Assembly: GCF_040499845.1 (NCBI RefSeq)
Contig: NZ_CP159342.1
Coordinates: 3,968,001 to 4,032,000, forward strand
Direction of reading: 5' to 3'
From: Micromonospora sp. CCTCC AA 2012012
GTDB taxonomy: Bacteria; Actinomycetota; Actinomycetes; Mycobacteriales; Micromonosporaceae
DNA: 64,000 nucleotides
The notes beneath the pieces are model-generated. The model did no database searches, was not told the origin of the DNA, and was given only the letters and a program-made list of their open reading frames with translations. Below are positions 15,700 to 37,029 of this stretch, in pieces. How positions within the stretch are numbered: the first letter of the stretch is position 1; each line of letters starts with the position of its first letter. The translations under genes were made by a program, and so were the position numbers.

Positions 15700-15775
15700 T
15701 GGTGCGCCGCCAGGGACTCGAAGCCCGAACCCGCGGATTACGAGTCTGCTGCTCTGCCGGTTGAGCTAGCGGCGC
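15700..15775 (-). tRNA. tRNA-Lys-derived gene with anticodon CGT (possible pseudogene)
   Basis: 76 nt with CCA encoded. It differs from the two tRNA-Lys(CTT) genes downstream at only four places: one D-loop base, one anticodon-stem base (an A-C mismatch), the middle anticodon base (loop CTCGTAA, giving CGT) and one T-stem base next to the loop (a C-C mismatch). The acceptor stem GCGCCGC/GCGGCGC is perfect. By anticodon it would read the Thr codon ACG on a tRNA-Lys body. Two broken pairs argue for decay; intact ends and terminator argue that it is still transcribed. Confidence 0.7.
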
Positions 15776-15864
15776 TCGCCGGCAACGGGATGAAACGTCA
15801 GCATCATCCCGACCGGGCCTGCGTGGGGTCGGCCACCCGGCCCGCAGGATGAGCGCGTAGGTGA

Positions 15865-16863
15865 TCATGAGGTCGACGCGGAATCGACGACACGTCGGCT
15901 GAGCTGATCCGCCCACCCCACGCGGGCGAGAATGTCGGCGGCGACCTCAGCGGGGGTGCGGTCGTTCGTGATCGTGAAATCCTCAACGGCGGTCCCGACC
16001 GGTGCGGGTTGAGGCTGGGCCAGCGCCGCCAGGTGCCGTTCGAGCTTCGGTCCCGTGTCCCGCTGACGCAGCCGGCCACGAACGGTGTCGCTGTCAGCGA
16101 TCAACCTGACCACACTGAGGTCACAACCCGCCAGACTCTCCGCATATCGATGCCGCTGGGCCACGCTCTCCATGGCGGCTGCGGCGACGACGAAGCGCGC
16201 GCCCGCAGCCCTGAAATTTGCCCACACCGCGGCCAGATTCACGCACTTGAGCTCGTCGTACACTCGCCCGCCGGCAGGGCCGAGGGGCCGGGGCGGCCCG
16301 AACTGAGCCAACAGGTCCGTGTCGACGACGGCCGTGACGTGGCCGGCTTCGGTCAGGAGCTGTCCGACAGCCTCCGCGACGGTCGACTTTCCCACCCCGG
16401 CCACCCCGGTGAGCAGCACGGCTCGACAGCCGGAGGGTTCCACAGCCCCGGGTTCCAACTGGAACCAGTAGCTGACCGTGGCGCCCTGTGCGGACGGGCC
16501 ACCGCCCAGCGACTCGTACAGCGCCCGGGCGGGGGCGTTGGCTTCGCCCGTCGTCAGGAACATCCGGCTGGCGCCGGCCTGCGCGCCAGCCGACATGAAC
16601 GCCCGGAGCAGGGAACCGCCGAGTCCCCGCCGACGGTGCTCAGGCGTCACCTCCAGTCGATGGAGATAGAGCATTGAAGAGGCGTCCGGTCGGATCAGGT
16701 GATAGCCCCAGCACCACCCGACGACCTCTTCATCCTCGGACGCCACGAAGGCCAGAGCGCCCGGACTGCCCAGGAACGCCTGGCCGCCGCCCGACACCGC
16801 CCCGAACCTGCCCATGGCACGATCGAAGAGCCAGACGTCGGCCGCTTCCACACGACTCGTCAC
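15865..16863 (-). CDS. GNAT acetyltransferase (AAC(3)-I-like) fused to a P-loop kinase
   Basis: 332 residues, GTG start. Res ~1-135 are a GNAT domain with strand LHRLEVTPEHRRRGLGGSLL containing the acetyl-CoA loop RRRGLG and the end pattern APARALYESLGG; the layout resembles gentamicin 3-N-acetyltransferases of type AAC(3)-I. Res ~145-325 are a small-molecule kinase-like domain with Walker A GVAGVGKST (~res 152), an acidic VVDTD and a lid-like Arg region (SDTVRGRLRQRDTG), as in shikimate or nucleoside kinases. The two-domain design recalls bifunctional drug-modifying enzymes, but drug resistance is only a possibility. It lies between two tRNA-Lys copies and is slightly less GC-rich than its neighbours. 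Confidence 0.75.
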   Translation of the reverse strand: MTSRVEAADVWLFDRAMGRFGAVSGGGQAFLGSPGALAFVASEDEEVVGWCWGYHLIRPDASSMLYLHRLEVTPEHRRRGLGGSLLRAFMSAGAQAGASRMFLTTGEANAPARALYESLGGGPSAQGATVSYWFQLEPGAVEPSGCRAVLLTGVAGVGKSTVAEAVGQLLTEAGHVTAVVDTDLLAQFGPPRPLGPAGGRVYDELKCVNLAAVWANFRAAGARFVVAAAAMESVAQRHRYAESLAGCDLSVVRLIADSDTVRGRLRQRDTGPKLERHLAALAQPQPAPVGTAVEDFTITNDRTPAEVAADILARVGWADQLSRRVVDSASTS

Positions 16864-17042
16864 GCATCATTCTGACCCGCGGCCCGTCCTGATCTCGACC
16901 CTCGGGGAGCGGCGGATCTGCCGCAGATCGCGCGGCTCCCTCCGTGCGCGGTACGGCGTCCGCCAGGCGGGCGAGATGGCGTTGTGGGGGTGCAGGCAGG
17001 GCTAGCTTGGCGGAGGGAGAGCCACCACCCGGACGCAACTGC

Positions 17043-17083
17043 AAAAAGGCCCCGCCCCAGTGAGAACACCAGGTCAGGGCCTT
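17043..17083 (-). terminator. Terminator of tRNA-Lys copy 2
   Basis: AAGGCCC pairs with GGGCCTT around a ~20-nt loop, with five A on the plus strand giving a U-run on the minus transcript. It lies 4 bp past the tRNA 3' end. Confidence 0.75.
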
Positions 17084-17086
17084 CTT

Positions 17087-17162
17087 TGGTGCGCCGCCAG
17101 GGACTCGAACCCCGAACCCGCGGATTAAGAGTCCGCTGCTCTGCCAGTTGAGCTAGCGGCGC
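17087..17162 (-). tRNA. tRNA-Lys (anticodon CTT), copy 2
   Basis: 76 nt with encoded CCA. Perfect 7-bp acceptor stem (GCGCCGC/GCGGCGC), normal D arm (GCTC..GAGC), anticodon stem GCGGA/TCCGC and loop CTCTTAA (anticodon CTT, Lys AAG). The 22 bases before the gene on its own strand match those before the CGT copy, so these two arose by a recent duplication. Confidence 0.95.
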
Positions 17163-17307
17163 TCGCCGGCAACGGGATGAAACGATAGCAGCCACCCGGG
17201 CGGCCGTTCCACGGGGACGGCACCCACGACCGCCCGGTAGCCGGTCGTCACGGGGTGATCTCCGCTCGCCGGCCGCGCAGCCCAGCCCGTCTCGCTCCGC
17301 CTTCCGC

Positions 17308-17327
17308 CTTCTTACCTGCTTCTTACC
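17308..17327 (+). promoter_or_regulatory. 11-bp direct repeat before the YHYH gene
   Basis: CTTCTTACC occurs twice (17308-17316 and 17319-17327), 11 bp apart, in the last 65 bp before the YHYH start. This same-face spacing is typical of OmpR/PhoB-type binding sites. Confidence 0.4.
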
Positions 17328-17370
17328 GTGTTTCCACGCCGCCCTGACGAGGACACGGACTACTGGACGC

Positions 17371-18378
17371 ATGTCGAATAGACGCCTTCTTGGCAAGCGC
17401 GCGGCTGTCACGGCCGGGGTCCTCCCCATCCTGCTGGTGTCGGCCTGCGCGGGAGGGTCGAGCAACGGCCCCGCATGGACCGAGGCCGGCTCGACCGCCA
17501 TCGGTGCCACCAGCCCTCCGGCTCCGCCGTCCCACCCGGACACGGGGGTTCCGGTCGCCTGGTCCGCCGTGACCGACCCGAAGGCGATACCCCTCGGGGA
17601 CGGCAATATCGTCACCACCCCGGTCGCCGGTTCCCTCTACTCGTGCAAGACCGAGTTCGGTGGGCGCGGCGCACCGCACGACGGCCCGTGGATCGACCCG
17701 ACGAACAAGACCTGGGACGCGACCGCGAAAGTGCAGGTCTCGGGCCACCACACCTGGCCGCAGGCGACCTACCAGGAATCGACCCAGGGGGACGTCAGGG
17801 TGATCAGATCCGACGACCTGCCGACGAAGCAGAGCACCGGCAGTTTCCCCATCGCGCAGGACGACCCCGCGTACCAGTACGACCGTAACCCCAACGGCAT
17901 CCAGCGGAAGGTCGTCGAACTACGCCTGCCGCTGCGGCCCGCACCGGCGAGCGAGCCCAGCTGCGTGGGCATGGGTGCGGTCGGCGTACTCAAGAACGGT
18001 GTATTCGTCTACAACGCCCTCGACGCCGCGGGCGGGGACGCCGCGGCGCACGAGACCCAGGACGCCTGCGACGGCCACCCCGACGGCACGGAGGCGTACC
18101 ACTACCACGACGTCCCCTCCTGCCTGCTCTCCGCGGCCTCCGCCAAGGGCGCGACCCTCGTCGGGTACGCCCTCGACGGCTACGGCATCTACGTCGAACG
18201 CGACGAGAAGGGAAACCTCCCGACCAACGCCGATCTCGACGCCTGTCACGGGCGCACCAGCACCGTGCTGTGGAACGGCACGATGCAGCGGATCTACCAC
18301 TACGACGCCACTCTGGAGTTCCCGTACACGGTCGGCTGCTACCGCGGCACCCCGGTCACCCCGCCGGCCCACAGATAG
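17371..18378 (+). CDS. YHYH-domain lipoprotein
   Basis: 335 residues. A lipoprotein signal ends LLVSAC (~res 26), so the mature protein should be anchored outside the membrane. The body carries the family pattern: GVLKNGVFVYNALDAAG, then GHPDGTEAYHYHDVPSCL, then LVGYALDGYGIYVERDEKG, then RIYHYDATLEFPYTVGCYRG. YHYH proteins are secreted and His-rich; metal binding is suspected but no reaction is established. It lies between the second and third tRNA-Lys copies in a patch that looks acquired. A tandem 9-base repeat with an 11-bp period precedes it, suggesting response-regulator control. Confidence 0.85.
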   Translation: MSNRRLLGKRAAVTAGVLPILLVSACAGGSSNGPAWTEAGSTAIGATSPPAPPSHPDTGVPVAWSAVTDPKAIPLGDGNIVTTPVAGSLYSCKTEFGGRGAPHDGPWIDPTNKTWDATAKVQVSGHHTWPQATYQESTQGDVRVIRSDDLPTKQSTGSFPIAQDDPAYQYDRNPNGIQRKVVELRLPLRPAPASEPSCVGMGAVGVLKNGVFVYNALDAAGGDAAAHETQDACDGHPDGTEAYHYHDVPSCLLSAASAKGATLVGYALDGYGIYVERDEKGNLPTNADLDACHGRTSTVLWNGTMQRIYHYDATLEFPYTVGCYRGTPVTPPAHR

Positions 18379-18476
18379 TCCCGGCCCCTCGGGCGGCGCC
18401 GGTGTCCGTGCCTGTCGGCTCCGGCTGCGGCAGGTCGGCTCCGAGCGACCGCACGCCGGGAGGACACCCATGAACA

Positions 18477-18520
18477 GAAATGCTCTGACCTGGCGCGCGA
18501 ACGCCAGGTCAGAGCATTTC
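18477..18520 (-). terminator. Terminator of tRNA-Lys copy 3
   Basis: A 19-bp perfect stem (18477-18495 with 18502-18520) and 6-nt loop, 7 bp beyond the tRNA 3' end on the minus strand. It can also stop transcription arriving from the YHYH gene. Confidence 0.8.
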
Positions 18521-18527
18521 TCACAGG

Positions 18528-18600
18528 TGCGCCGCCAGGGACTCGAACCCCGAACCCGCGGATTAAGAGTCCGCTGCTCTGCCAGTTGAGCTAGCGGCGC
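18528..18600 (-). tRNA. tRNA-Lys (anticodon CTT), copy 3
   Basis: The body is identical to copy 2 (loop CTCTTAA, perfect stems), but the 3' end reads CCT, so CCA is not fully encoded and the last base must be replaced after transcription. The flanks differ from copies 1 and 2, so this copy separated earlier. Confidence 0.95.
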
Positions 18601-18786
18601 TCGCTGACAACGGGGAGAACACTAGCACGCCCTCCGACCGGGCATCCAATCCGATCCCCGCTCCACCCTTCGGCCGAGCTTAACGGGCAAAAACCCCTGA
18701 ACGACGCGTCTCGTCCGGCGAGGGGACCGAGGCGATGGCAACGATGCGGCACGATGTGCGCCAGGCACGCGAGAACAGAGGTGGGG

Positions 18787-20067
18787 ATGGGCAGGTTCGC
18801 GCGGACCGGGGCGATGGTGGGCGCCCTGGTTCTGACGGCGTCACTGGCACTGACCGGGTGCGGTGACGACCAGAAGAAGGCGGAGTTCGTCGGTGGCAAC
18901 CAGCCGGCGGGGGCGTCGGCGGCGCCGGAGACGACCGCCGGACCGACCGGGTCGACCCCGACAGCGGGGGCCGCGGCCGGCCCTGCACTGCAGGTCAGCC
19001 CGGCGGACGGGGCGCAGAAGCGGCCGGTCAGCACCGAGATCAGCGCGAAGATCCCCGGCGGGGGCAAGGTTTCCGAGGTCGTGCTGACGGCGGCCGGCGG
19101 CGACAAGGTGGAGGGCCTGATGCGCCGGGACGGCTCGTCCTGGGTGCCGTCCAGCCCGTTGAAGTACGGGACCCGTTACACGGCCACCGTCACCGGGACC
19201 GGCACGGACGGGCAGACCCATCAGGGCAGCAGCACCTTCACGACCATGGCGAAGCCGAAGTCGATGATCGGCTCGGGGCTCTACCTCTTCGACGGCAAGA
19301 CGTACGGGGTGGCCATGCCGGTGGTCGCCGAGTTCTCCCCCGGCATCCCGGAGAAGGACCGGGCCGCGGTGCAGAAGCGGATGTTCGTGCGGACCGACCC
19401 GCCGCAGCCGGGCGCCTGGCACTGGCTCTACAACGGCACCCAGGCGTACTACCGGGCACCGGAGTACTGGCAGCCGGGCACCACGATCACCGTCCGGCTG
19501 GCGCTGGCCGGGATCCCGTTGAGCAACGGCCGCTACGGCAACCTCGACCGGACGGCGACCGCCAAGATCGGTCGCTCCTTCGTGATGAAGGTCGACAACG
19601 CCACGAAGAAGATGACCGTCTTCGAGGGCGGCGTGCTGACCCGCACCCTGCCGGTGAGCCTGGGCAAGAAGAGCACTCCCTCCTCCAGCGGCACGATGGT
19701 GGTGATGGAGAAGAAGGAGTCGACGGTCTTCGACACCCGGGACGAGCCGGATCCGGACAACCAGTACGTCACGAAGATCGACTTTGCGCAGCGACTCACC
19801 TGGGGCGGCGAGTACATCCACTCCGCGCCCTGGTCCGAGGGCGTGCAGGGCCGGCGGAACGTCTCGCACGGCTGCGTCAACGTCTCCGCGGCGAACGCGA
19901 AGTGGCTCTTCGAGCGGACGCTGATCGGCGACCCGATCACCGTCACCGGCACCGAGCGCAAGCTGGTGCCGGGCAACGGCTGGACGGCGTGGAGCATGAG
20001 CTGGTCGGAGTTCGTTAAGGGCAGCGCCCTGCCGGTGCCCGACGGCGGCGCCGAACCCGCCTTCTGA
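18787..20067 (+). CDS. L,D-transpeptidase lipoprotein (Ig-like domains + YkuD), paralogue 1
   Basis: 426 residues. A lipoprotein signal ends LALTGC (~res 26). Two Ig-like domains follow (~res 60-150 and ~155-260, each with the TMAKPK/GVAMPVVAEFS type of strand), then a YkuD catalytic domain with the nucleophile in SHGCVNVS and the upstream histidine in YIHSAPWSEGVQGR. These enzymes form 3-3 cross-links between meso-diaminopimelate residues of peptidoglycan and give beta-lactam tolerance. The domain plan is that of mycobacterial LdtMt2. The start at ATG 18787 has a GAGGTG site; 18754 would add residues before the signal. It is followed by a close paralogue in the same direction. Confidence 0.92.
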   Translation: MGRFARTGAMVGALVLTASLALTGCGDDQKKAEFVGGNQPAGASAAPETTAGPTGSTPTAGAAAGPALQVSPADGAQKRPVSTEISAKIPGGGKVSEVVLTAAGGDKVEGLMRRDGSSWVPSSPLKYGTRYTATVTGTGTDGQTHQGSSTFTTMAKPKSMIGSGLYLFDGKTYGVAMPVVAEFSPGIPEKDRAAVQKRMFVRTDPPQPGAWHWLYNGTQAYYRAPEYWQPGTTITVRLALAGIPLSNGRYGNLDRTATAKIGRSFVMKVDNATKKMTVFEGGVLTRTLPVSLGKKSTPSSSGTMVVMEKKESTVFDTRDEPDPDNQYVTKIDFAQRLTWGGEYIHSAPWSEGVQGRRNVSHGCVNVSAANAKWLFERTLIGDPITVTGTERKLVPGNGWTAWSMSWSEFVKGSALPVPDGGAEPAF

Positions 20068-20282
20068 CCACCACGCGGTGACCGTGGCCCGGTGCGCCGG
20101 GCCACGGTCGTCGCGCCGCGAGGCGCGCCGCGACGGAGCCGAGCCACACTCGCAGAGTGTCGCGGCGCACCGCGATCGGGTCATCATGGTCGGGGTGTTC
20201 CGCTTCACTTCCGGCAACCGGCACCGCTGCGCGCGCGTCAGTAGGGGACGATGGGCCCGGGATTCACGACTGTGAGGGAATC

Positions 20283-21605
20283 ATGCGCACTGGCCAGGAC
20301 GAGCTGATCCGGCGCGGGACCGCCCGGCGGGGCGGCCGTCGCCGCATGGTGGCGGCGGGGGTGCTCGCCGCCGCGTTGGCGTTCACCTCCGCGTGCACCG
20401 GCGGCGGTGGCGGCGACAAGCCGTCGAGCTGGCAGGGCGGTGGGGAGAGCGGGCCGAAGGCGTCCGCCACCATCACCGAGCCGGCGGCCGACGCCAAGGA
20501 CGTGCCGGCGTCGACCGGCATCACCTTCACCACCAAGGACGCCCGGGACACCAAGGTCGAGCTCAAGGACGCGGCCGGCAAGGCCGTCGAGGGCACTCTC
20601 GCCGAGGACGGGAAGAGCTGGCTGCCCGCCGGCGCGCTGGAGTACGGCGAGACGTACACCGCGACCGTGACGGCGACCGGCGAGGACGGCAAGCCGGCGA
20701 CGACGACCAGCCACTTCACCACCATGGCGCGTCCCGGCAAGCAGGTCCGGATCAGCAGCTTCCTCGCCGACAACCAGGTCGTCGGGGTGGGCATGCCGCT
20801 GATCGTCAAGTTCAGCCGGGCCGTCCCGCAGGACTACCGGGACGACGTCCAGCGCCGGATGACGGTGACGGCCACGCCGGTCCAGGAGGGCGTCTGGCAC
20901 TGGGTGAGCCCCACCGAGGTGCGCTACCGCCCCAAGGAGTTCTGGAAGGCCAACTCCACCGTCTCGTACCGGATCCAGGCCGGCGGTCTGCCGCTCGGTG
21001 ACGGCTGGTACGGCCGCTCCGACCTGACCGTCGACGTGAAGATCGGCCCCTCCTTCGTGATGACCGTCGACAACCGCACCAAGAAGATGACGGTCACCAG
21101 GGACGGCAAGGTGATCAAGACGATCCTGGTGAGCCTCGGCAAGAAGACCACCCCGTCGTCGAGCGGGACGATGGTGGTGATCGAGAAGCTCCGTAAGACG
21201 GTCTTCGACACGCTGGAGGAACTGGGCCCCGAAGAGGGCTACCGGACCAAGATCGACTACGCCCAGCGGCTCACCTGGGGCGGCGAGTACATCCACGCCG
21301 CGCCCTGGTCCGAAGGCGTGCAGGGCAAGGTGAACGTGTCGCACGGCTGCGTCAACGTCTCGATGGCCGACGGCGCCTGGCTCTTCGCCAACACCCGGGT
21401 GGGTGACCCGATCACGGTCTCCGGCACGGAGCGCAAGCTCCAGAACGGCAACGGCTGGACCGACTGGAACATGAGCTGGGACGAGTACGTCAAGGGCAGC
21501 GCCGTGCCGTACGAGCCGCCGACGACCGACGACGCCAGCCCGAGCGCCGACCCGGGCACCGGTGCCACGCCGACCGACGAGCCGAGCCCCACGCCGACCG
21601 CCTGA
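20283..21605 (+). CDS. L,D-transpeptidase lipoprotein (Ig-like domains + YkuD), paralogue 2
   Basis: 440 residues, same plan as the gene before it: lipoprotein signal ending TSAC after a basic stretch (RRGTARRGGRRR), two Ig-like domains, and YkuD with SHGCVNVSMADG. The catalytic segments are nearly identical to paralogue 1 (LTWGGEYIH, PWSEGVQG), pointing to tandem duplication, while the first Ig domain and the 35-residue Thr/Pro/Asp tail (ending PSPTPTA) differ. A 215-bp gap with possible promoter sequence separates them, so the two can be expressed differently. It makes 3-3 cell-wall cross-links. The start is set by the signal peptide. Confidence 0.92.
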   Translation: MRTGQDELIRRGTARRGGRRRMVAAGVLAAALAFTSACTGGGGGDKPSSWQGGGESGPKASATITEPAADAKDVPASTGITFTTKDARDTKVELKDAAGKAVEGTLAEDGKSWLPAGALEYGETYTATVTATGEDGKPATTTSHFTTMARPGKQVRISSFLADNQVVGVGMPLIVKFSRAVPQDYRDDVQRRMTVTATPVQEGVWHWVSPTEVRYRPKEFWKANSTVSYRIQAGGLPLGDGWYGRSDLTVDVKIGPSFVMTVDNRTKKMTVTRDGKVIKTILVSLGKKTTPSSSGTMVVIEKLRKTVFDTLEELGPEEGYRTKIDYAQRLTWGGEYIHAAPWSEGVQGKVNVSHGCVNVSMADGAWLFANTRVGDPITVSGTERKLQNGNGWTDWNMSWDEYVKGSAVPYEPPTTDDASPSADPGTGATPTDEPSPTPTA

Positions 21606-21620
21606 TCCCGCCGCGACGAC

Positions 21621-21653
21621 GAGAGCCCCCTGCGTACACCGGAGAGGGCTCTC
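21621..21653 (+). terminator. Terminator after the second L,D-transpeptidase
   Basis: GAGAGCCC pairs with GGGCTCTC around a 17-nt loop, 15 bp after the stop codon. Confidence 0.65.
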
Positions 21654-21675
21654 GCACGTCCAGGACCGGAAACGG

Positions 21676-21707
21676 CGGAAGCCCCCTCCCGCAGGAGGGG
21701 GCTTCCG
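21676..21707 (-). terminator. Terminator after tRNA-His
   Basis: 14-bp perfect stem (21676-21689 with 21694-21707) and a 4-nt loop, beginning 7 bp beyond the tRNA-His 3' end on its strand. Confidence 0.8.
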
Positions 21708-21714
21708 TCACCGG

Positions 21715-21787
21715 GGTGACTGATGGGAATTGAACCCACGACAACCGGGACCACAACCCGGTGCTCTGCCAACTGAGCTACAGCCAC
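21715..21787 (-). tRNA. tRNA-His (anticodon GTG)
   Basis: The acceptor stem GTGGCTG pairs with CAGTCAC (one G-U), the anticodon loop is TTGTGGT, and the extra G at position -1 required by histidyl-tRNA synthetase is present at 21788. The CCA end is not encoded. Confidence 0.95.
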
Positions 21788-34584: not shown

Positions 34585-34671
34585 GCGGGAGTGGCGTAAT
34601 AGGCAGGCGCGATAGGTTTAGGTCCTATTGTCCGAAAGGACGTGGGGGTTCGACTCCCCTCTCCCGCACCA
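34585..34671 (+). tRNA. tRNA-Leu (anticodon TAG)
   Basis: 87 nt with encoded CCA. Acceptor GCGGGAG/CTCCCGC, anticodon loop TTTAGGT between ATAGG and CCTAT, and the long variable arm (TGTCCGAAAGGACGT) of leucine tRNAs. Confidence 0.97.
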
Positions 34672-34734: not shown

Positions 34735-35265
34735 GTGAACCTGCGTTTCGTCCTCGACCCCGAACTCACCACCGAACTGCGGGAACGCGTCATCTCGCTC
34801 TGGGTGGACGTCACCAACGCCGGTGGCGCGGTCGGCTTCGTCGCCCCGGTGACGGCGGCCGAGGTACGGCCCGTCGCCGAGGCGACCTTCGGCGAGATCG
34901 CGGCGGGACCCGACCGGCTGCTGGTCGGCTACGAGGGTGACCGTCCCGTGGGCGTCCTGATCATCACGGACAACCGGTTCCGGCTGAAGGCCCACTACCG
35001 GGTGCTCAAGCGCGTGATGGTCCATCCCGACACCCAGGGACGAGGCCACGGCGCCGCGCTCATGCGCGAGGCCGAACGGATCGCCCGCGAGTCGGGCCTG
35101 GACGCGTTGCACGTGACCGTCCGCAGCGGGCTCGGCCTGGAGTCGTTCTACGAGCGGCTGGGCTACCGCGAGGTCGGTCGCCTACCGGGTGCGCTCCGGG
35201 TCGCTCCCGGCGACGACCGGGACGAGATCTTCATGTGGCTCGACCTGGCGACCCCCGCCGGCTGA
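34735..35265 (+). CDS. GNAT-family N-acetyltransferase
   Basis: 176 residues, GTG start at 34735. Strand-loop-helix KRVMVHPDTQGRGHGAALMREAERIARESG holds the acetyl-CoA motif QGRGHG (~res 101-106), followed by DALHVTVRSGLGLESFYERLGYREVG, a standard GNAT ending. The N-terminal ~50 residues are helical (ELTTELRERVISLWVDVTNAGGAVGF), suited to substrate recognition. Substrate unknown. It stands just after tRNA-Leu with no operon partners. Confidence 0.8.
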   Translation: MNLRFVLDPELTTELRERVISLWVDVTNAGGAVGFVAPVTAAEVRPVAEATFGEIAAGPDRLLVGYEGDRPVGVLIITDNRFRLKAHYRVLKRVMVHPDTQGRGHGAALMREAERIARESGLDALHVTVRSGLGLESFYERLGYREVGRLPGALRVAPGDDRDEIFMWLDLATPAG

Positions 35266-35391: not shown

Positions 35392-35517
35392 GGGTCTGAG
35401 TCGGACCCGGAGTTCGGAGCCGCGCCCGAGTTGCGAGCCGGACCGGAGTTGCGAGCCGGACCGGGGCGCAAGCCCGACCGGAGTTGCGAGCCGGACCGGG
35501 ACGCAAGCCGCACCAGC
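35392..35517. repeat. Degenerate 18-bp tandem repeat
   Basis: GAGTTGCGAGCCGGACCG occurs exactly at 35428, 35446 and 35481, with diverged copies between and on both sides, keeping an ~18-bp period. An 18-bp period keeps every frame open for six-residue repeats, but no ribosome site or start supports a gene. Confidence 0.8.
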
Positions 35518-35576: not shown

Positions 35577-35916
35577 CGCTACGAACTTGATTACAAAGAT
35601 GAATCACGGATGGAGTGGACCGAGCGCAGGTTCGCTCGTCGACGAACCGGGATCAGGACCAGCACCGGACGGAACGGGGGACCAGGACCGGACCGGGGAC
35701 GACGGCCCGACCGGGGACGACGGCCCGACCGGGGACGACGGCCCGACCGGACCAGGACCGACACGGAACCGAGAACCGGACCAGGACTGGGCCAGGCAGG
35801 ACCGCGGGGCCGGGACCGAAACCACGGACAGCGCCAAGACCGGGACCAGTGCCAGTGCCAGTGCCAGTGCGTCGATAGACCGTGGGTGACCCATCTTTGT
35901 AATCAAGTTCGTAGCG
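35577..35916. repeat. 340-bp element bounded by perfect 25-bp inverted repeats
   Basis: The left arm is 35577-35601 and the right arm 35892-35916; they are exact reverse complements with no extension. The arms are far more AT-rich than the surroundings and each contains GATTACAAAGATG pointing inward. The 290-bp interior holds three exact copies of an 18-bp unit (35691-35744) and a short AGTGCC run (~35850-35870). Neither transposase nor target-site duplication is seen. Nothing in 35266-35967 can be called a gene with confidence. Confidence 0.85.
35691..35744. repeat. 18-bp tandem repeat, three exact copies, inside the inverted-repeat element
   Basis: The unit GACCGGGGACGACGGCCC is repeated at 35691, 35709 and 35727 with a partial fourth. 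On the plus strand one frame would read TGDDGP three times. It has the same period as, but a different sequence from, the repeat at 35392-35517. Confidence 0.85.
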
Positions 35917-35967: not shown

Positions 35968-37029
35968 TCAGTGTCCGCAGCCGGTACGTACCAGGGCGGG
36001 CGTCGGGGGTGCGACCGCCGCGTCCACGACCTGGCGGCGATCGGTGGACGAGGTGAGCGGGCTGACCGTGGTGCTCGGCGGGGCGGTCGGAGCGGCACTG
36101 GCGGAGGCGCTGGGTGAGGCCGACGGGGAGCGGGTGGGCGTCGCCGACCGGGAGGCGGCCGGGGTGGCGCCGCCGTACATCCGGACGGCGCTGCGTTGGA
36201 CCTGGCCGGGGGCCATCCGGATGCCGGTGGCGGTGGCGCGGTGGCCGTACACGTCGGTGACCCGGATGGCGTACGGGCCGGGGCCGGCACCGGAGTCGAT
36301 CAGCCAGTAGTTGTAGTCCTGCCGGGTCGCGCCACGCCAGTTTCCGCCCTGGCGCACCTCGACCGAGCGCAGCGGGTTGCCGTGCTCCCCGACCAGCACG
36401 GCGAACCACCACTGGGACGCGCCCTCCTTCATCCGGAAGGTGAGCGGTCCGGGCAGCGGCGGGTTCACCACCGCCCGGTAGCTGACCGGGACGACGCCCT
36501 TGACGGGGTCGGCGATGCGGGCGAACGCCTCCGCCGAGAGGTCCAGGTGACCGGGCTCGCACTCCGGGCACTGGTCCATCACCAGGACCCGGACGGTGCC
36601 CTTCGGGCCGGTGACGTCGAGGAAGCCGCCGCAGGCCGCGCCCTCGGCGTACTCGCCGGGGCCCAGCGCGACATACAGCCGGTTGGTGGGGGCGGCCGGG
36701 CGGGAGCAGTTGCCGCCAGCGCCCTGCGAGTCGTAGAAGGTGGCCTTTCCCTGGTGGACGGTGCCACCGAGCGGCGGAGCGGCCAGTGCCCGGGGCGCGG
36801 CGGCGGCCGGCGCGTTGCGGGCCGGGGCAGCCGCGCAGGCGGGTTCGGCGCCGGTGCGGACGGCGAGGACCAGGCCGGTGAACGCGGCCAGCGCCACCAG
36901 CCCACCACCGGCCAGCCAGCGTCCGGTGCGGACGGCCGCCCGTCGGCGCCCCCGCCCGGAGCGCACCTGAGGGTCGGGCTCGGTGGAGGGGGAACTGTCG
37001 GGGCCGGTGGGAGCGCTGCCGTCGGTCAC
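35968..37029 (-). CDS. Bacterial expansin (EXLX1-like), membrane-anchored or secreted
   Basis: 353 residues, GTG start. After ~35 basic residues, one hydrophobic segment (GGGLVALAAFTGLVLAV) serves as signal or anchor. The six-stranded double-psi barrel (~res 88-190) has GKATFYDSQGAGGNCS and the Asp of MDQCPECEPGHLDLS, the residue needed for wall loosening in Bacillus EXLX1. The second domain (~195-300, CBM63) has the aromatic stretch SQWWFAVLVGEHGNPLRSVEV. The last ~55 residues are Ser/Thr/Pro/Ala-rich and end TGCGH, longer than usual expansins. It loosens plant cellulose networks without hydrolysis and fits with the LPMO and CebR-box gene elsewhere in the window. Confidence 0.9.
   Translation of the reverse strand: MTDGSAPTGPDSSPSTEPDPQVRSGRGRRRAAVRTGRWLAGGGLVALAAFTGLVLAVRTGAEPACAAAPARNAPAAAAPRALAAPPLGGTVHQGKATFYDSQGAGGNCSRPAAPTNRLYVALGPGEYAEGAACGGFLDVTGPKGTVRVLVMDQCPECEPGHLDLSAEAFARIADPVKGVVPVSYRAVVNPPLPGPLTFRMKEGASQWWFAVLVGEHGNPLRSVEVRQGGNWRGATRQDYNYWLIDSGAGPGPYAIRVTDVYGHRATATGIRMAPGQVQRSAVRMYGGATPAASRSATPTRSPSASPSASASAAPTAPPSTTVSPLTSSTDRRQVVDAAVAPPTPALVRTGCGH

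Follow-up and report, generated by a model that had tools for sequence, protein, structure and literature searches.

REPINs, among the described systems closest to the element considered here, are doublets of REP sequences associated with RAYT transposases, and 430 REP doublets have been reported in the part of Bertels and Rainey (2011, PMC3116915) drawn on here. In the sections consulted of that paper and of PMC3733652, REPs and REPINs appear as inverted doublets with lone units as remnants, with lineage-specific variants and with sites downstream of genes; an excerpt of PMC8049555 describes their long persistence, and REP targets are treated in a section of PMC1525189. REPs tagged with GTAG or CGTC are palindromes of 20-40 bp in which the tag lies beside the unit's own stem-loop, according to the relevant section of Di Nocera et al. 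(2013, PMC3733652), and none of six actinobacterial names for which its text was searched occurs in it. Among miniature transposable elements (MITEs), Correia elements are placed mostly upstream of genes in part of a review (PMC10969869), and sites of the regulators CRP and LeuO lie between convergent genes in the portion of PMC4892627 considered here. A literature search by topic and by arm sequence, mainly of open-access papers, returned no description of the arms reported below, and the family of paired DNA marks that they form is apparently undescribed.

The window, by which the whole analysed stretch of 64,000 nucleotides is meant, comes from a Micromonospora genome of 6.73 Mb (G000) and contains a perfect inverted repeat of 25 bp (35577-35601 against 35892-35916) that extends to 31 nt at 94%. 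The 25-mer has a G+C content of 40% (10/25, counted) against 73-75% across the window, and GATTACAAAGATG points inward in both arms. Exact inverted ends, AT-rich relative to their surroundings and each with an inward-pointing sequence, had been described in the initial annotation, and all of this is confirmed. The unit of the family is a 28-bp arm, which in this genome takes the form CTACGAACTTGAT(TA/GG)CANNNATGRRTCA. In the window the left arm, CTACGAACTTGATTACAAAGATGAATCA, occupies 35579-35606 on the plus strand, with its outer end at 35579 inside the perfect repeat, and the right arm, CTACGAACTTGATTACAAAGATGGGTCA on the minus strand, occupies 35887-35914. Between them lies an interior of 280 bp (35607-35886) with an 18-bp tandem repeat in 3.3 perfect copies (35691-35750) and a run of the hexamer CCAGTG in 4.2 copies (35846-35870). 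The element sits in a gap of about 700 bp into which two genes converge, a GNAT acetyltransferase gene upstream (34735-35265, plus strand), whose stop is 313 bp from the left arm, and a gene for a DPBB/expansin-like protein downstream (35968-37029, minus strand), whose stop is 53 bp from the right arm. Five tRNA genes were also seen in the window, at 15703-21787 (minus strand) and at 34585-34668 (plus strand), the latter just upstream of the GNAT gene. The internal 18-bp repeat to which the initial annotation had drawn attention is real, but just beyond the left arm (35398-35499) there is a comparable GC-rich array of 18-bp units, and in the nearest relative found (G313) the orthologous element lacks the repeat, its interior being 74 bp long and without clear alignment (z 2.0). 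The repeat is therefore a property of this spacer and not a conserved feature.

Searched against its own genome, the 340-bp element recurs at 46 places, at most of them by its arms only. An arm 22-mer with up to 3 mismatches gave 35 matches against 0 for the reversed pattern, so the arm family is not a product of chance. The 28-mer pattern gave 51 matches (control 0), and a sequence-only covariance model built from 112 arms gave 69 at E up to 1, of which the weakest may be chance; a reversed weight matrix found nothing at 8 bits or more in 839 kb of scanned loci. Base counts over 150 candidate arms, a few of which are chance matches, place sharp motif edges at positions 1 and 28. Each arm holds about 38 bits (hand-summed), with next to none inward of position 28 and little outward of position 1, where sequence preference just outside the arms reaches at most 0.26 bits per position. 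The arm seems bipartite: its outer part is a box, CTACGAAC, and its inner part, TGAT(K)(R)C(R)NNN(A)(Y)GRNTCR, has some inner dyad. Readings of the ends as attC-like sites or LexA boxes were dropped, since the ends do not fit those consensus sequences.

The family is concentrated in one genus. With 1 mismatch, a general pattern matched in 93 of 160 Micromonospora genomes, against one match in each of five for the reversed control. A second, species-tuned pattern matched in 105 of the 160 and in 1 of 194 genomes from other genera of the bacterial family, where it had a single match, as the control did; its matches per genome run from dozens in some species (87 in G147) to one to three in others. 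The covariance model, run on 397 genomes of the order, matched in 18 genomes of the genus, several of them with at least 18 matches, and gave one weak match in each of three others. Exact CTACGAACTTGAT pairs with a gap of 31-91 bp were found in 24 stretches among 84,980 named species genomes, all of them Micromonospora (MP36, PLK6-60, CB01531, RP3T, M. solifontis and M. chaiyaphumensis). Two arm patterns had no exact match in viral contigs and a 35-nt arm had no blastn match at E up to 1 in plasmids, and a viral or plasmid origin was rejected on these grounds. Elsewhere in the genus a second palindromic family was noticed, whose arms, AGATCTTGGA / GATCTTGGACAGTT, form inverted pairs at distances of 33-50 bp, in some cases around a GC-rich hairpin (L061 ~1411-1461; L070 ~1405-1455; L164 ~1408-1455, in G269; L188 ~2765). 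In G269 and G301 it occupies the gap after glmM in which G000 has a CTACGAAC pair.

Arms occur mostly in pairs. A chosen sample of 109 arm loci from 14 genomes, comprising most G000 sites, one G313 set and selected sites of 12 other genomes, contained 77 inward-facing pairs with outer CTAC ends and 32 single arms. The 36 intergenic arm loci examined in G000 were divided into 26 pairs and 10 singles. The initial annotation had counted against its own reading a confinement of the arms to this place or to coding genes, together with a lack of conserved spacing between paired copies; arms do occur elsewhere and outside genes, and the spacing of pairs is not conserved, varying from 32 to 478 bp, start to start, with 4-450 bp of enclosed DNA over all genomes. 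An invertible promoter was set aside, loops as short as 4-6 bp being unlikely to invert. Within 700 bp of the lone arms no hidden partner was found by score in 30 of 32 cases, and two G000 singles (109640 and 4126140) have a sub-threshold partner, a GTGTAATC variant. Three further pairs of apparent singles face each other 1.0-1.8 kb apart. Arms 1.0 kb apart in G291 enclose a 66-codon GntR-type reading frame (Pfam), those 1.75 kb apart in G289 enclose two genes that by eye look SDR-like and TetR-like, and those 1.5 kb apart in G313 enclose open frames, that interval having been checked for open frames only. No transposase lies between the arms in G291 or G289, and no autonomous parent element was recognised there. 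Two loci in GAGCTGATGTCG-class species, L281 (G294, ~1410-1737) and L275 (G223, ~1443-1798), have several tandem arms in the same direction followed by an inverted partner. Downstream of three lone arms of G000, L043 (1383577), L092 (1265364) and L099 (6547165), there are paralogous genes (IPHGVQG...SLGLFQQRPSSGWG), in each case at a distance of about 420-480 bp; one copy was scanned and had no Pfam match.

Pairs favour the 3' sides of genes, above all convergent gaps. Gene calls by a codon-position heuristic leave 108 of the 109 arm loci outside genes, and at the copy at 3553037 a TAA stop falls in the frame in which both ends of the window element translate to TNLITKM. The peptide that the initial annotation had read from the ends thus looks incidental, and a coding origin of the arms was rejected. 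The 77 pairs are divided into 34 in convergent, 34 in tandem and 9 in divergent gaps, against 11, 80 and 63 of 154 control gaps, which were at least 150 bp long, came from the same fetched loci and rest on the same heuristic calls; convergent gaps are enriched (Fisher 9e-11) and divergent gaps depleted (4e-6). The enrichment is also seen in G000 alone, where 10 of 26 pairs but 4 of 61 gaps are convergent (p 6e-4). In tandem gaps, the closer of the two neighbouring gene ends is the upstream stop for 29 of 34 pairs, the median distances being 122 bp to that stop and 280 bp to the downstream start.

Many of these positions are common to species whose neighbouring DNA is 82-96% identical. Of 29 arm loci of G313, two of them selected by position, 17 can be aligned with arm loci of G000, and the same genes enclose the element in both. 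When both neighbours were required to correspond, a stricter test, 15 of 31 are orthologous to a G000 arm locus, the remainder having no counterpart among the G000 arm loci examined. In 12 further genomes 18 of 42 arm loci, three of the 42 picked for position, have both neighbours orthologous to those of a G000 arm locus. The window locus itself has a pair in G313, G312 and G326 and an arm in G257, and in the last three genomes the site is, from its coordinates, just downstream of the same GNAT gene. Different species have both the position and the arms in common, and the recent origin suggested in the initial annotation is not borne out. One arm that stands alone next to a conserved gene pair does so in three genomes (L055 6394757, L213 1777649, L112 136063), so that retention may extend to lone arms.

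Conservation is focused on the arms. At six alignable G313/G000 loci (four pairs and two singles, orthologous loci not being independent), 245 of 280 arm positions are identical (88%), against 78 of 121 in the interior (64%) and 468 of 748 in the flanks (63%; p 4e-16), an excess that is partly due to ascertainment because the loci were chosen for arms in both genomes and orthologous sites that had lost their arms were not collected. Similarity of the interiors was clear in three of 15 ortholog pairs (z above 3), and in a fourth pair, L216, the alignment runs through the whole element.

A further distinction lies within the arm itself. Most G000 arms have the core AACTT-GATTACA/GATGGCA, while G313 has AGTTT-GATGACG beside AAC(C/T)T, G257 and G312 have AAGCT-GATG(A/T)CG and many other genomes have GAGCT-GATGTCG. 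Arms that form a pair resemble one another more than arms shuffled within the genome do at positions 5-10 and 14-17 (0/2000 shuffles, 71 pairs), weakly so at positions 18-21 (p 0.016) and not at positions 22-28 (p 0.95). Core positions go with the species (0.760 within species, 0.711 for orthologous arms and 0.689 otherwise) and have no locus signal (p 0.37), whereas the inner arm positions keep a memory of their locus across species (0/1000 permutations). At 11 loci where the class has switched between G000 and G313, the core has no locus memory (p 0.99) and the inner positions retain it (0.656 vs 0.576 by permutation, p 0.002). Core and inner positions alike have locus memory at four loci of the same class (p 0.008 each). 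That the outer core shifts in concert while inner positions remember their locus argues against replacement of whole elements. The pattern speaks for a core altered site by site, at fixed positions, under a common demand.

Based on these observations, the window element is read with moderate confidence as an inward-facing pair of putative 28-bp DNA recognition sites at the 3' sides of genes, mainly in convergent gaps. A putative sequence-specific protein, or two paralogues with differing core specificity, would bind both arms, probably bridging them, looping out the DNA between them or recognising them in an extruded cruciform. The bound factor would then act alike on both strands, perhaps as a road-block in both directions, as an insulator separating transcription units or as a site that structures the chromosome. 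The set of sites and its putative binder may have co-evolved, leaving each species with its own arm consensus. Like CRP and LeuO sites, the arms are sequence-specific and found between convergent genes; unlike them, they represent a single site type, mostly in inverted pairs of 28-bp arms and in one genus so far. Several observations count against this reading. The roughly 38 bits per arm are more than a usual regulator needs and look like a transposon end, and 9 of 77 pairs lie in divergent gaps. Copying within a small G000 subfamily and the absence of arms from 9 of 14 glmM loci with both neighbours, both described below, also count against it. The initial annotation had offered a miniature transposable element, a recombination or binding site and an RNA hairpin; what was found is a repeated, intergenic, paired element for which a binding site fits best, and the other two options fared less well.

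Alternatively, the arms could be the ends of REPIN- or MITE-like non-autonomous elements read in trans by a putative transposase; the copies would have spread long ago, persisted by descent and come to cluster at gene ends because insertions do little harm there. This account is possible, if doubtful, and stays the main rival because arms that match and are rich in information would be suitable for a transposase too. With REPINs the Micromonospora elements have in common a short conserved unit that lies between genes, occurs singly as well as in inverted doublets whose spacer is less conserved, and varies by lineage, and both the downstream placement (PMC3116915 and PMC3733652, in the sections cited above) and the long persistence described in the excerpt of PMC8049555 would agree with such an origin. 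Further agreement comes from four G000 elements of ~101 bp that have some interior sequence in common as well as an asymmetric right arm with TGTAATC at its end (L090 109640, L093 1776890, L095 3463132, L097 4789343), an indication that copying within the genome took place at least once. Presence and absence at the glmM site point the same way: among 30 loci examined, 14 have both neighbours, with a pair in 4, a single arm in 1 and no arm in 9, although the matrix used favours the CTACGAAC class, so that arms of other classes may have been overlooked, and one of the nine armless loci was only partly scanned.

Other features set these elements apart from REPINs. Single arms do not self-fold (seven folded as DNA, z -1.6 to 0.6), the spacer is free in length and structure, there are about 30 pairs in this genome, and the outer core and inner half evolve differently. 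A transposase search of the genomes for the Y1 family (PF01797) only gave 0 matches in G000; matches were present in 6 of 15 arm-rich, 2 of 9 arm-poor and 5 of 14 control genomes, so that 9 of the 15 arm-rich genomes have none. In 30 Y1 loci (2.1-3.4 kb each, of 33 matches) no arm was found at up to 2 mismatches, while the same scan was positive in 30 of 30 arm loci. Membership in the REPIN/RAYT group was rejected for the missing RAYT, the armless Y1 loci and the arm that does not self-fold; the likeness is kept. GTAG/CGTC REPs also lie in convergent and tandem gaps downstream of coding regions, often in opposite orientation, and their tag recurs in the GTAG outer end of the Micromonospora arm (GTAGCG in most copies of this genome), but these arms are not palindromes. 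MITEs of the Correia/NEMIS kind resemble the present elements in inverted ends of 25-30 bp, non-coding content, lengths of mostly 60-340 bp and intergenic position, but here the arms are kept at orthologous places, the elements are enriched after genes and the interiors are mostly unrelated and unconstrained in length. Of 72 interiors compared, a 20-bp match was found within the G000 subfamily and a 31-bp match between orthologues (G291, G270), the other matches being 11-20 bp long, some of them between orthologues. Target duplication does not exceed that in shuffled pairs: flanking matches of at least 3 bp occur in 14 of 77 pairs against a shuffled mean of ~10.6, and matches of exactly 2 bp in 40 pairs against 32.9, the flank itself preferring CG. 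A MITE with target duplication is thus not supported. Neutral relics would also not be expected to hold their arms so far above the surrounding sequence in identity, subject to the ascertainment described above.

An element acting as RNA, its arms pairing within mRNA 3' ends to form a terminator for both directions or a hairpin that protects or processes the mRNA, is unlikely. Sites between convergent genes and after stops would suit such a role, as would the co-variation of the outer core between the arms of a pair and the strong predicted fold of the window element (z -5.0). This fold, however, is a consequence of the inverted repeat, and co-variation is missing at positions 22-28. Arm-to-arm transitions in tandem elements have no G-U strand bias (56 sense against 64 antisense wobbles), leaving the RNA hairpin option without strand-specific support. 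Interiors are unstructured (55 of 77 tested, mean z -0.14 vs -0.35 outside). Intrinsic-terminator features are also absent, the arms having 43% G+C and a T run above 2 occurring in 1 of 77 elements within the 20 nt beyond the right arm, the only side scanned; an intrinsic terminator, with its GC-rich hairpin and T run, was rejected. Rfam searches of the window and 10 loci gave only tRNAs at gathering scores and one weak sub-threshold match outside the element, and a known structured RNA was rejected for the elements searched. It is very improbable that different elements inserted repeatedly at the same intergenic hot spots and so mimicked conserved position, as differences in both arm class and interior at about ten G000/G313 loci might suggest, since the inner positions of class-switched loci remember their locus, the arms are still better conserved where the interior aligns and there is little sequence preference outside the arms.

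Dispersed palindromic repeats are usually explained as mobile relics driven by RAYTs or insertion sequences. The family described here, in an antibiotic-producing genus, combines the lack of a RAYT match in this genome with many shared orthologous positions, conservation focused on the arms and a concerted shift of the core. Tentatively, its members may represent a punctuation system in which dozens of paired 28-bp marks, fixed in place where transcription units end, are read by a co-evolving recogniser, whose shifts in specificity would be followed by most sites, both arms together, without a RAYT or other mobile partner. With a defined DNA bait, about a hundred genomes that differ in their consensus and convergent-gene reporters, whether such repeats serve their host becomes directly testable.
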